Origin: Roseibacillus persicicus
Lineage (GTDB): Bacteria; Verrucomicrobiota; Verrucomicrobiia; Verrucomicrobiales; Akkermansiaceae
Assembly (NCBI RefSeq): GCF_014651675.1
Contig: NZ_BMXI01000015.1
Coordinates: 103,742-167,741 of the forward strand
DNA: 64,000 nt
Reading direction: 5' to 3'
The notes under the pieces are model-generated. The model ran no database searches. It was given only the letters and a program-made list of their open reading frames with translations, and was not told the origin of the DNA. A program made the position numbers and the translations under genes. The first letter of the stretch is position 1. Every line of letters starts with the position of its first letter. Positions 51,001 to 54,688 of the stretch are shown piece after piece.

Positions 51001-52754
51001 CCCGGCCACTCGTTGTAGAGATTGGTGTGAATCTGGAACTCGACTCCGGTGAAATCGTAGCTGGAGTTCGAGCCGCAGAAATCAAAGAGGATGGGCAGGG
51101 GGAGAAGGCCGGACTCTTGGTCAGTCTCGTCGATTTCGTAAACGCCGGGAGTCATCTTGACTTCGACATTGTCTTTCCCAATCTGGGCGAGAAGTTCGAG
51201 GACCGAGCTCACGACGATTTGCCCGTCACGAATCTCGACTTCGATTTGATCTTGGACGGCTCCATTTTGTCCGTTGTTGAAGGCCAGATCGTCGGCATCG
51301 AGCTGCAATTTGACTGAACTGTTAGAGGCGATAGTGATTCCGGTGTGGGTCAAGGTGCGGAAGTCGGTCCAACTGCCGGTGGGCGGGAAGTAGACGGTGT
51401 CGAGATCGACTCCGTTATGATAAAGGCTCAAGCGGGTGGTGGTGGCGCCGTTGGCGTAGGTAATTTGCAGGGTGTCGCCGGCGGGAAGGTTTGAGTATTC
51501 GACCGAGTCTCCCGCCGCGTCGAAGCCATCGAGGGCCTGACCTGCGAAGGCCGTGGGCGAGGTGATGGGATTGAGACCAGTGAAGACCGCGTTCTCGGCT
51601 TGGTGGGGGCTGGCGGGAGGAGAACCTGTGATGAGTTGAAAGCCATTGAGCTTGGCGCTGGAATCAATCGCGATGCGACCGGCGATGTCCGCAGTGGTGG
51701 TGAAGGTCTGGTAGTTAACGCCAAGGCTGAAGGAGCCCGGATTCCCAGAGTTGGAAGTGGTCTTCGTGACACCATTGACGGTGATGGCTGAGCCTTGCCC
51801 GGAGCGGTCACCCGCCGCGTAGACGTAGAGCGTGTATTGGGCACCAGGGGAGAGACCGCGGAGAAGAGAGATGGTGCTGTTGTAGAAGTAGTCGTTGAGC
51901 AGGTTGTTGCTTTTTCCAGAGTCGAAGAATCCGCTCCCTCCGGAAAGGTCGAGCCGGACGGGGGTCAGGGTGGTCCCATCGGAGGCGGTGAGCCCCTTCA
52001 ACGATCGGCTGTCCGTACTGAAAGTATTGTTCCAGTAGTCGTTGCCGGGATCGGCAAAAGCCCCTTGTCCGCTGTAGGGAGTGGTGGTGGTCTCGTTTCC
52101 TCCGAGGTCGACGTTGACCACAAAGTCGAGCGGGGAAGTGTTCGCGGAGAGTTCAACAATCTGCAGTCCGTTGAGGACCGAATAGCTGCTGCCGTTACGG
52201 GCCACGGTTCCGGAGAGTTCGCCATTGCTATCCGCTGTTGCCGCCATGACCACGTAGTTGGCGTTTTCTGAGATGCTGCCATCGAGCAGGCCGCTGTTGG
52301 ATTTGGTTTGTCCACCGAAGGTGATGGTTGAATTCTGGGAGAGATTGTCTCCCTGGGCATAGAGGTAGAGGAGATATTGCCCGTTTGGGGTCAGGCCTGT
52401 TATTCCAACGCTGGTGTCGGCATTTCGGGCGTAGGAGTAGTCGCCAACAAGGGAACTATGGGACTGCCCGGCGGGAACGTTGCCGCCCGTGGCATCATAG
52501 CGGCTCCCTGTCGAGATCGTGACGTCGATGGTGGTGAGTGTCAGGCCATCGGATGCCAGGAGGTCGGTCAGCGTGCTTGCGGAACTGTTCCAGAAATCGT
52601 GGCCGGGATCGGAGTGGGCTCCTTGGCCGGAAAAGGTGTTGTCCGCGCTGGGTTCCACATCCAGATTGACTACGAGCGCTTGCGTCCAAAATGTTGTTAG
52701 AAAGGAAAACAGAATGGCAAGCTGATGGAGTGTGAGGCGGAGAGGAGGGCGCAT
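48099..52754 (-). CDS. Large modular secreted carbohydrate-binding/beta-helix protein
   Basis: 1551 residues. A signal peptide (LHQLAILFSFLTTFWTQALV) precedes two similar ~170-residue modules (NLDVEPSADNTFSGQGA and NVDLGGNETTTTPYSGQGA mark each). Then come a CBM6/35-like domain (GFDAAGDSVEYSNLPAGD), a right-handed beta-helix (about 515-850), two F5/8-type-C/CBM32-like domains (TLDGNGSTFWSADGLGEWIQ; TLDGDLSTRWSAEGVGQWIQ), a LamG-like domain, and a C-terminal tail of the verrucomicrobial secreted type. Probably a surface polysaccharide-binding lyase or hydrolase; substrate unknown. It is next to a carbohydrate esterase relic. Confidence 0.8.
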   Translation of the reverse strand: MRPPLRLTLHQLAILFSFLTTFWTQALVVNLDVEPSADNTFSGQGAHSDPGHDFWNSSASTLTDLLASDGLTLTTIDVTISTGSRYDATGGNVPAGQSHSSLVGDYSYARNADTSVGITGLTPNGQYLLYLYAQGDNLSQNSTITFGGQTKSNSGLLDGSISENANYVVMAATADSNGELSGTVARNGSSYSVLNGLQIVELSANTSPLDFVVNVDLGGNETTTTPYSGQGAFADPGNDYWNNTFSTDSRSLKGLTASDGTTLTPVRLDLSGGSGFFDSGKSNNLLNDYFYNSTISLLRGLSPGAQYTLYVYAAGDRSGQGSAITVNGVTKTTSNSGNPGSFSLGVNYQTFTTTADIAGRIAIDSSAKLNGFQLITGSPPASPHQAENAVFTGLNPITSPTAFAGQALDGFDAAGDSVEYSNLPAGDTLQITYANGATTTRLSLYHNGVDLDTVYFPPTGSWTDFRTLTHTGITIASNSSVKLQLDADDLAFNNGQNGAVQDQIEVEIRDGQIVVSSVLELLAQIGKDNVEVKMTPGVYEIDETDQESGLLPLPILFDFCGSNSSYDFTGVEFQIHTNLYNEWPGQEVRVFEFNGSNNHFYGLTQKDIGNEAINSVGVLNMAVVGDANKVEEFSLYTRGSRPYGYGDLFGKGSGAVIGHDKHAALLVNGANCHLLNCYLELASYGHGIFMQGAIGTLVEGCFVKGDTFNTTDNVLAEEGTGSEADHVDFMTVWGWEVPPGYAFSLQEDGIRCYNNGANGLNTANTTVRNCTVENMRSGVVIGFSDGDNEIFGCTTISVEGSFWPGNGDSVEHCQGEAPYQGMVDTPYQNDSNQDYSVTLLQETAPYGNDLIAYFAGSGHDITFWNSALQPTPNSQTIQMGGLKTGLRHYDGSTTYTLSNTSLTNWTDQAVALPGNSSNNSISSFGTVSNAGSGNTVSTVSPATVSASVTSSGSAAATLDGNGSTFWSADGLGEWIQYDLGTSRNLYQASVQWLNGNTLQYDFEIQVSSSSSGPWTNVYSGTSTGSTGFEEYNFPTQNARYLRVVGQGNSLDEKIQIVDFDLDLKDRFAMVKAKSEAGANFISQNTLDGDLSTRWSAEGVGQWIQYDLLERKQINGLALAWHNGISRSYDFEVGVSDHPMGPFTSIYTGTSSGSTNSLESYAITPAEARFIRITGEGNSVDDWTNITEAFLDTKTLVEVELAPTPLACWLLDESQGALLADSSGNGYQGSRGAAPISNPTWSVGAEGNGGLSFDGSASSATLPAAAFTNLSDEISLSFWAYGGTSLPRDSSVIRALDASGNRILNIHLPWGNGQVYWDAGDGSGYDRINKQAAAAEFSGSWNHWVFTKNATQGSMQIYLNGNLWHSGSGKTRSLSAISTVFLGSDGGTVAFEGSLDNIVLYDEALTLAQVNDLYQGSTFAYLDWVEQQGLSSSDTSRTGDPDEDQWPNLLEYALGSNALTSQDGSLFLKEELLESESKFEFSYRRRLDAAERGLNYLVKGTSELSDPNSWTTEGILETSTIPIDEEFEWVTVQTDIGIRKFLRLEVTMDSGK

Positions 52755-52893
52755 TTTGCAGGGGGATGGGTTTGAATAGATGTTACTTCGGCTCGAGTCG
52801 CTACGCTATCTCATTCCCTTCACGAATTTCGTCTCGGGGAAAGGGCCTTCGCGGCGTGGTTGCAAGTCGGTGAGAAAGACTTAGGTTTGGGGA

Positions 52894-53628
52894 ATGAATT
52901 TGAGAAAGAGGCCGGAGGAGTACTTGGAGCGAGAAGACGGGAAAGTGGCGGCTGTGATTTTGCCTCTCGATGAAGAGCGTTCCAAGGTGCCGTTCGAGAC
53001 CGCCACCTTTGGCTTGGGATGATTCTGGGGGCCGGATTCCGAGTTCGGAAGCCTTCCCGGAGTTTTGCGCACTCGCGTCGGTTATTGCGGCGGAACTGCA
53101 GAAAAGCCGACCTACCGTTCGATGGGCGACCACACTGAGGCGGTCTCAATCGACTATGATCCTACAGTGGTGAGCTATTCGGATTTGCTTGCGGAATTTT
53201 GGCTTGGCCATCGCTATGATTCCATCAACCGCAGCACGCAATATCGGAAGGCTGTGTTCTGCCGCGACGAGACTCAACGTCAGTTGGCGCTGGTTTCGCG
53301 TGAAGAACATTCGGAGCGCGAGGGCTTGAGCCTGGACCAGATTCGCACCGGAATTCTTCCGGTGAACCACTTCACCTACGCCGAAGCCTACCATCAGAAG
53401 TATTCTCTTTCGCGAGCGAGCGAGTCGCGGCTCTTTCTCGAAAGTGTCTATCCTACTGGTAAGGCCTTGGCGGACTCCACTGTAGCCACTCGGCTGAACG
53501 CCTATTTGGGGGCGGGTCTGCGGTTGGATTGGAAGGCTTTGCAGCGGGACCTCGGAGCCTATGGCTTGCCTGCCCATTTGGAAAAGCAGATCCGCCAGCT
53601 CATTGCTTCACGGTCGAGCCGCGAATGA
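52894..53628 (+). CDS. msrA: Selenocysteine-containing peptide methionine sulfoxide reductase A
   Basis: One frame of 245 codons with a TGA at codon 43 (53020-53022). Codons around it read TFGLG-TGA-FWG, where all MsrA proteins have GCFWG; the TGA replaces the catalytic Cys exactly. The rest is complete: GVLRTRVGYCGGTA, PTYRSMGDHTEAVSIDYDP, AEAYHQKYSL, and a C-terminal part like animal-type MsrA (VATRLNAYLGAG). A SECIS-like hairpin follows at the right distance. Reduces methionine-S-sulfoxide; Sec would raise activity. Reading from 53065 alone would lose the active site. Start ATG at 52894 is the only good one; the 3' end overlaps the convergent regulator gene by 29 nt. Confidence 0.85.
53020..53058 (+). 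promoter_or_regulatory. Candidate bacterial SECIS element with the UGA
   Basis: After the TGA (53020-53022), pairs form between 53029-53031 (GGG) and 53056-53058 (CCC), 53034-53035 and 53052-53053, and 53037-53041 (TTCCG) with 53046-53050 (CGGAA). The apical loop is AGTT (53042-53045), with G at its second base, 19 nt after the TGA. This fits the published bacterial SECIS model as I recall it (upper stem 4-16 bp, loop 3-14 nt, a G in the first two loop bases, 16-37 nt from UGA). Confidence 0.75.
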
Positions 53629-54688
53629 TCAGCTGACCTTGCAGGGTGACCCGTTGGATGGGCGTGTCGGGATACTTGATGCGGTGCATCATCAGCTCCG
53701 CAGCTACGCGACCGATGTCGCGGCAGGGTTGTTGATAGGTGGTGAGGGGGACGCTGAGCAGGGAGGCATGTTCGACATCGTCAAAACCTGAGACCTTGAC
53801 CCGCCCGGGAATGTCCGCGCCCCGGTCGATGAGCCCGCGCAGAATGGGGCCAGCCGTGACGTCGTTGGCGCAGATGATGCCGTCGGCGCCGCTCTCGAAG
53901 AGCTCATTGGCAGCCTTTCCCGGGGAGGACTCGGGGTCGATGACGGTGAGCAAACTACTTGCTTGTAGACCGTGCTGGGTCAGGGCTTCGCGACATCCCA
54001 TTCGGCGAAGCTGCACCGTGACGGCCGGGTTCTCGCGAGTGACAAAGACAAGTCGCTTGCATCCTTGCTCGAGCAAATGGCTGGCTACTGAATAGCCCGC
54101 CTCGATGTTGTCGATGCTCACCAGGTCATTACGGGTCTGGCGCGGCCAGCGGTAGATGTCGCGGTCGATGAGAACCACACGGATGCCTGCGTCAGTCAGC
54201 CTTTCAATCACCCCTGAGTTGAAGTCGGATGGGTTTTCCAAGTGTTCGGTGGGGGCGAAAAAGACGCCTCTCACGCGGGCTTCGATGAGCTGATCGGCCA
54301 GCGAGTTGGTGCGTTTTTTCAAGTCGTCGGCAAAGCTCAACTCCGATGGCAGGATGACCCGCATTCCACCCATGCCCGAGGTCTCTGCGATGGAGGCAGA
54401 GATGGGTTTGAAGATTTCGATTTCGTTGAGTTGGGGGATGAGGAGCCCCGCGAGCAGTGCCGATTTCCGCGGCGCGAGAACCTGGGTGCCAAAGCCGGCC
54501 TTGCGAACCACCAGCTTTTCATCACTCAGAAGCTTCAGCGCGCGGGCAATGGTGGGGCGGGAGGTTTGGTATTTTTTGCAAAGTTCGGCCTCGGTAGGGA
54601 GAAAGTCGCCGGGTGAAAAGGTCTGGTCATGAATCTGATGCAGGATTTCCTTATAGATTTGCAAATACCTTGGCTGGCTTTCGTTCAC
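53600..54688 (-). CDS. GntR-type DNA-binding / LacI-type sensor regulator (AraR-like)
   Basis: 362 residues. The N-terminal winged helix-turn-helix is GntR-like (FSPGDFLPTEAELCKKYQTS RPTIARALKLL), and the C-terminal ~280 residues are a periplasmic-binding-protein/LacI-type sensor (LLIPQLNEIEIFKPISASI, GIICANDVTAGPILRGLID, KVSGFDDVEHASLLSVPLTT). This chimera is the AraR architecture. Divergent from the kinase and transporter genes it probably controls, with a candidate operator between them. Confidence 0.92.
   Translation of the reverse strand: MNESQPRYLQIYKEILHQIHDQTFSPGDFLPTEAELCKKYQTSRPTIARALKLLSDEKLVVRKAGFGTQVLAPRKSALLAGLLIPQLNEIEIFKPISASIAETSGMGGMRVILPSELSFADDLKKRTNSLADQLIEARVRGVFFAPTEHLENPSDFNSGVIERLTDAGIRVVLIDRDIYRWPRQTRNDLVSIDNIEAGYSVASHLLEQGCKRLVFVTRENPAVTVQLRRMGCREALTQHGLQASSLLTVIDPESSPGKAANELFESGADGIICANDVTAGPILRGLIDRGADIPGRVKVSGFDDVEHASLLSVPLTTYQQPCRDIGRVAAELMMHRIKYPDTPIQRVTLQGQLIIRGSTVKQ

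Follow-up and report, generated by a model that had tools for sequence, protein, structure and literature searches.

The window analysed here is a stretch of 64,000 nucleotides from the Verrucomicrobiales bacterium Roseibacillus persicicus (contig NZ_BMXI01000015.1, positions 103,742 to 167,741), whose genome sequence comprises 5.28 Mb in 92 contigs and is 97.5% complete. On its forward strand lies a single frame that is predicted to encode a methionine-S-sulfoxide reductase (MsrA) with selenocysteine (Sec) as the catalytic nucleophile (Table 1). The frame opens with an ATG and closes with a TGA at 53626–53628, and the sole stop between them is a second TGA, at codon 43. An initial annotation, made from the DNA letters, had described the frame as broken by this codon alone and had placed the codon exactly where MsrA has its catalytic Cys. 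Translation confirms both statements: read through the TGA, the protein runs ETATFGLG-U-FWGPDSEFGS, with U in the place of the MsrA nucleophile. Under the standard code, what remains in the same frame is a 187-residue open reading frame with a TTG start.

The surroundings of the gene were also inspected. Neither a sigma-70-like promoter nor a terminator was found at 52700–53750. An open reading frame on the reverse strand (53600–54688), transcription-regulator-like and named by eye, stands tail to tail with the MsrA gene and overlaps it by 29 bases. On the forward strand, a GGAGGAG run at 52914–52926 lies a few bases 5′ of an in-frame TTG and may point to another start within the N-terminus of the protein.

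Table 1. Positions of the predicted Sec-MsrA gene and its features in the window
Feature	Position	Strand	Basis or description
Predicted Sec-MsrA gene	52894..53628	+	244 residues and terminator, with TGA codon 43 read as Sec
Predicted Sec codon, in-frame TGA (residue 43, GUFWG)	53020..53022	+	TGA in 76 of 78 readable relatives
MsrA catalytic domain, residues 35–172	52996..53409	+	Pfam PF01625, PDB alignments
C-terminal helical domain, residues 173–244	53410..53625	+	Profile match and predicted fold
Predicted SECIS core hairpin, Glu register	53037..53050	+	5 pairs, loop AGUU; nucleotides 18–31 from the T of TGA
Longer hairpin around the core	53021..53064	+	Minimum-energy fold of a 48-base segment, −21.5 kcal/mol
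Open reading frame remaining under the standard code, TTG start, without active site	53065..53628	+	

Domains, active site and selection on the protein

The readthrough product matches the Pfam family PMSR (PF01625) over residues 36–172 at 123.7 bits (cut-off, 23.7) and scores 107.9 bits against NCBIfam TIGR00401, marginally below the cut-off of 108.1. Its best solved relatives are the entries for the MsrA of Clostridium oremlandii (CoMsrA), which match residues 35–228 at 145.3 bits; the MsrAs of other organisms reach at most 86.1 bits. The earlier label of ‘animal-type’ MsrA was therefore imprecise, as the nearest solved relatives are bacterial. The profile match to CoMsrA spans both the catalytic domain and the C-terminal helical domain. 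A model predicted from a 29-row alignment has a mean pLDDT of 93.3, with helices between residues 170 and 241, and its best fold match is CoMsrA entry 4LWJ (TM-score of 0.88 by target length and 0.75 by query length, 36% identity).

The active-site residues of CoMsrA are given as Tyr47, Glu55, Gln89, Tyr90, His137 and Tyr140 (PMC4333827). By alignment, their equivalents in the window’s protein are Y74, E82, Q116, Y117, H167 and Y170, the first five of which are invariant in the 29 rows; Y170 is invariant in 14 rows, not across the 29. We also compared the gene with that of Roseibacillus ishigakijimensis (L057), the product of which is 69% identical. Over the 70 codons after the TGA, dN is 0.09 and dS is 1.62, and over the 30 codons before it, dN is 0.23 and dS is 0.76; in comparisons with two other relatives (L058 and L063), dS is partly saturated. 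These rates indicate purifying selection on the codons to either side of the TGA.

Conservation of the TGA codon and capacity for Sec decoding

When 84,980 species genomes were scanned, 274 relatives emerged, and the best 80 were kept. The site is readable in 78 of these, with TGA in 76 and TGC in two, a Chloroflexi MAG (L113) and a Bipolaricaulota MAG (L136); L104 and L115 begin past the Sec site. The initial annotation had held a chance nonsense mutation at this codon to be unlikely and had proposed reading the codon in MsrA homologues, and the recurrence of TGA, together with purifying selection on both sides of it, upholds that view. With few exceptions the genes are otherwise open: further in-frame stops fall within the match upstream of the site in L110 and downstream of it in L117 and L133, and near the gene end in L028 and L029.

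A tree built from 79 proteins, rooted at the midpoint and with bootstrap values that had not settled, places 51 rows in one group with support of 100/98: 49 carry the name Verrucomicrobiota, one is the window’s and one lacks a phylum name. Within the tree, the window’s protein groups with those of R. ishigakijimensis and an uncultured Roseibacillus (support of 100/97). The rows apart from the group of 51 belong to Nitrospirota, Thermodesulfobacteriota, Planctomycetota, Acidobacteriota, Chloroflexota, Bacillota, Myxococcota, Bipolaricaulota and unnamed bacteria. One genome (G101) has two TGA-containing MsrA genes on separate contigs (L021 and L049), the second encoding a protein 42% identical to the window’s over the matched part. 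In L020, L021, L024 and L025, a hydrophobic, signal-like stretch lies ahead of the matched part; it is absent from the window’s protein, so cell location may differ.

We also searched the order in a sample of 141 genomes, 128 of which gave an MsrA match at an E value of 0.001 or better. TGA occupies the same codon in 13 genomes, the window’s included; this sample and the best-80 set are not independent, because the 13 relatives from the order appear to be among the 80. SelB scores above the NCBI cut-off in 34 of the 141 genomes, that is, in 13 of 13 with the TGA-containing gene versus 21 of 128 others (Fisher P = 1.2 × 10−9, a statistic that ignores relatedness). Among these 128 others is G135, in which the MsrA gene is broken by a contig end before the Sec site and SelB matches occur on two contigs, looking like one split gene, each below the cut-off. 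The Sec-MsrA gene is patchy in its occurrence, as a genome of the same genus as the window’s (G088) has SelB and no Sec-MsrA. In a phylum-wide sample of 387 genomes (matches at an E value of 1 × 10−30 or better), the only full-length match among those listed comes from the window’s own genome, and the next best reach 1.6 × 10−44; the other 12 genomes with the TGA are absent from these matches and evidently lie outside that sample. Six matches flagged for TGA were read for Sec, with G235 and G184, flagged for TAA or TAG only, left out. All six, G115 from the order and G173, G247, G290, G467 and G478 among the phylum matches listed, are Cys MsrAs with a stop after the catalytic domain and were rejected as Sec-MsrAs.

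The genes for Sec decoding, for which a search had been proposed in the initial annotation, are all present in the window’s genome. Of the two outcomes that the annotation would have taken as a refutation, the absence of these genes and a plain pseudogene with other lesions in close relatives, neither was observed. SelA, SelB and SelD matches score 458.9, 324.1 and 374 bits, respectively, each above its NCBI cut-off, and a tRNA-Sec scores 59.6 bits against an Rfam gathering score of 47; ARAGORN likewise calls a tRNA-Sec, with anticodon UCA. A second match to RF01852 above the cut-off proved to be a tRNA-Ser and was rejected. Judged by gene content, the genome can decode Sec. Two further TGA genes were found in it. 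One is selD itself (L054, G000:C13:136723-137652), with an in-frame TGA within UxxK, the motif given for Sec-containing SelD (PMC13188914). The other encodes a VPGUxxT type 2 protein (L177, G000:C21:42330-43127, NF041383), has its TGA in the VPGU motif and follows the selA match downstream at a distance of about 100 bases. In the C-terminal part of the protein, a stretch around HCFW is MsrA-like (hhalign probability of 88.5, E value of 2.8 × 10−6) and scores 15.6 bits against Pfam PMSR, below the cut-off; the protein may thus join a Sec thioredoxin-like domain to an MsrA-like domain. It shares with the window’s Sec-MsrA a TGA gene, the genome and an MsrA-like part around a CFW motif, but differs in that its Sec lies in the thioredoxin-like domain.

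Among the best 120 of 928 matches in protein databases, 117 are 160–197 residues long and three are 243–261 residues long. Ten database proteins were inspected: three long ones carry Trp at the Sec position and seven short ones begin past the site. The short ones include the NCBI protein of R. ishigakijimensis, which at 184 residues starts after the active site, as would be expected from the earlier claim that gene callers start the window’s gene at 53065. Surveys based on annotation would overlook the trait, because the active site is missing from these enzymes as deposited in databases. Given the prevalence of short records, the truncated protein translated from the TTG might be the functional form, with the TGA closing an upstream leader. 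Such a product would, however, be missing both the nucleophile and the fold’s first strand, and the 30 codons ahead of the TGA show conservation at the protein level, which leaves this reading very little probability. The long records, in turn, would fit a UGA that is reassigned in this lineage or read as another amino acid, such as Trp. Yet all three (P0003, P0004 and P0010) come from contigs of 1.1–1.3 kb, and their Trp is presumably TGA translated under a Trp code, for which the gene caller’s choice of code is the likely cause. Moreover, the window’s gene itself terminates with TGA, a tRNA-Sec with UCA is present, and by established MsrA chemistry an enzyme with Trp in place of the catalytic nucleophile would be dead. 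We regard reassignment as extremely improbable.

That the gene is a pseudogene, its TGA having arisen from a Cys codon by nonsense mutation, might be suggested by the two Cys MsrAs encoded in the same genome, because of which the function of Sec-MsrA is not unique there. Against this stand the same TGA in relatives across Verrucomicrobiota, Nitrospirota, Thermodesulfobacteriota, Planctomycetota and others, a dN far below dS after the TGA, and active-site residues that are intact. On these sequence comparisons, the conserved TGA in effect refutes the pseudogene reading, the chances of which we put as low as those of reassignment. With high likelihood, the window contains a real selenoprotein gene.

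A predicted SECIS hairpin in two registers

A bacterial SECIS is described as a stable hairpin just downstream of the UGA, with a guanosine in a small apical loop (PMC1088965). Judged from the aligned genes, the features of the hairpin in the window’s family agree with this description. We examined 77 TGA sequences, comprising the 76 loci and the window, in which the hairpin lies at nucleotides 17–33 from the TGA. Residue 50 is Glu in 33 of these, Gln in 22 and Arg in 22, and the stem follows this residue. In the Gln/Arg form, it runs from pair 17–33 to pair 23–27 around the loop GUU. In the Glu form, it runs from 19–30 to 22–27 around the loop AGUU, with pair 18–31 added in half of the distinct sequences, the window included. 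The two sets of pairs exclude each other: the 28 distinct Glu sequences are paired at none of three Gln/Arg positions, and pair 22–27 is never formed in the 44 Gln/Arg sequences. The outer helix of the longer hairpin in Table 1 is not common to all relatives.

Minimum-energy folding of 48-base segments proved uninformative for single sequences: for the 14 sequences folded, between 0.035 and 0.711 of the synonymous resamples were equally or more stable, and this fraction was 0.05 or lower in only two. Position-specific pair counts and covariation were therefore used instead. The codon null of the folding-energy test counted the hairpin codons, and that of the paired-fraction test excluded the 48 bases. 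Across the 77 sequences, the paired fraction is 0.918, compared with 0.553 (s.d. of 0.019, maximum of 0.613) in 500 synonymous resamplings with codon usage held; for the window alone, the same resampling gives a weak P of 0.026. Of the 77 TGA sequences, 75 have a stem of at least four pairs with GU at the loop, versus 3 of 17 Cys sequences. The 17 are the two TGC orthologues, in which such a stem is short or in another place, together with 15 of 18 paralogue loci (L036, L040 and L041 were dropped, as the motif matched no site).

Pairing reaches 93.8% of cells across the 44 Gln/Arg sequences. Pair 18–32 is seen as C–G, A–U, U–A and G–C, and pair 23–27 as G–C in 21 sequences and A–U in 18. The covariation score of this set is 0.288, a value reached by none of 500 shuffles (mean of 0.142, s.d. 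of 0.015), and structures slid along the alignment score at most 0.104. The number of pairs changed on both sides, 3 versus 1.8, is not unusual, as 71 of 500 shuffles reach 3. In the Glu register, which is the window’s own, the core pairs hardly vary and so yield no covariation of their own. At its gathering scores, Rfam gives no match at all in the window, and no SECIS family in L001, L012, L013 or L050.

On the best tree of the 79 proteins, the change between Glu and Gln/Arg at residue 50 requires at least eight steps, of which well-supported branches retain four independent contrasts only. The Gly codon accompanies the switch in four of four contrasts and the Phe codon in a mean of 3.5 of four, numbers too small to reach significance. 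Among the Gln/Arg sequences, the Phe codon tracks Arg in a mean of 6.2 of seven contrasts (median P of 0.03, range of 0.016–0.22). These observations point, on balance, to a SECIS with two registers that keep the same loop GUU and the same distance from the UGA, and between which the family would have switched repeatedly through one amino acid and silent codons, RNA signal and protein moving in lock-step; the odds are slightly lowered because only four switches are independent on supported branches. The two-register hairpin would offer a natural variant set for learning what SelB requires.

Proposed catalytic route and relation to known enzymes

In the mechanism that we propose, SelB would bring Sec-tRNA(UCA) to the UGA on meeting the hairpin. 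The selenolate of Sec43 would then attack methionine-S-sulfoxide, releasing methionine and forming a selenenic acid, from which a thiol supplied from outside, likely that of glutaredoxin as for CoMsrA, would regenerate the enzyme; the genome has two matches to the glutaredoxin family (PF00462). The helical domain would preserve the shape of the active site, a role shown in CoMsrA. Regeneration by an outside thiol, and with it the likely 1-Cys route, follows from the lack of a conserved resolving Cys: besides the nucleophile, the 29 rows contain no second conserved Cys, and in the two columns richest in Cys it occurs in 11 and 10 rows. The window’s protein does have Cys65 and Cys123, and the enzyme might be a true Sec-MsrA in which one of them, Cys65 in particular, resolves the selenenic acid. 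Cys65 lies in GYCGG and is Cys in 11 of the 29 rows, but the remaining 18 have Ala, Thr or Ser there, so we consider an internal resolving Cys unlikely, and by analogy the 1-Cys route of CoMsrA likely applies to the window’s protein. Taken together, we assign a probability of about 0.93 to the reading that the window’s gene encodes a Sec-MsrA, likely a 1-Cys, two-domain methionine-S-sulfoxide reductase of the C. oremlandii kind, with Sec insertion predicted at residue 43.

The initial annotation had presented Sec-MsrA as a rarity, known from a few algae, animals and anaerobes and with no described example in Verrucomicrobiota. In bacteria the enzyme is commoner than this implies: it was listed for Syntrophobacter fumaroxidans in 2006 (PMC1794560), nine sequences from the ocean followed in 2008 (PMC2398784) and structures exist for C. 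oremlandii. The statement on the phylum still stands, as no report of Sec-MsrA in Verrucomicrobiota was found in the open-access literature searched (titles, abstracts and some full texts), and the term Verrucomicro- is absent from the main texts of those two papers; in the other papers checked for it, the term is likewise absent or refers to a different protein. Nor did we find in print a Sec-MsrA across Verrucomicrobiales or a SECIS-like hairpin with a register tied to residue 50. The kind of enzyme is therefore already known, and its host group appears new. These results would place a selenium-dependent protein-repair enzyme in Verrucomicrobiales, and because one carrier, R. ishigakijimensis KCTC 12986, is a named culture-collection strain, the prediction is testable.

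The GUFWG of the window’s protein fits the motif GUFWG/H given for Sec-MsrA in a review (PMC13188914). With the Sec-MsrAs of S. fumaroxidans and the ocean metagenome, which are known there as listings, the window’s gene shares a bacterial origin and the in-frame TGA. The Cys MsrAs of Escherichia coli, cattle and Mycobacterium tuberculosis have the same catalytic domain and active site, but use a Cys nucleophile and a resolving Cys, and their PDB matches stop at the catalytic domain. The closest likeness is to CoMsrA (PDB 4LWJ, 4LWK and 4U66), which has Sec at the nucleophile of GUFWG, a catalytic domain followed by a C-terminal helical domain, the same active-site residues and, again, no conserved resolving Cys. 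At about 36% identity to CoMsrA, the window’s protein is approximately 27 residues longer at the N-terminus and contains two other Cys residues, whereas CoMsrA has none; and CoMsrA comes from a strictly anaerobic clostridium, whereas the host here is a Verrucomicrobiales bacterium.
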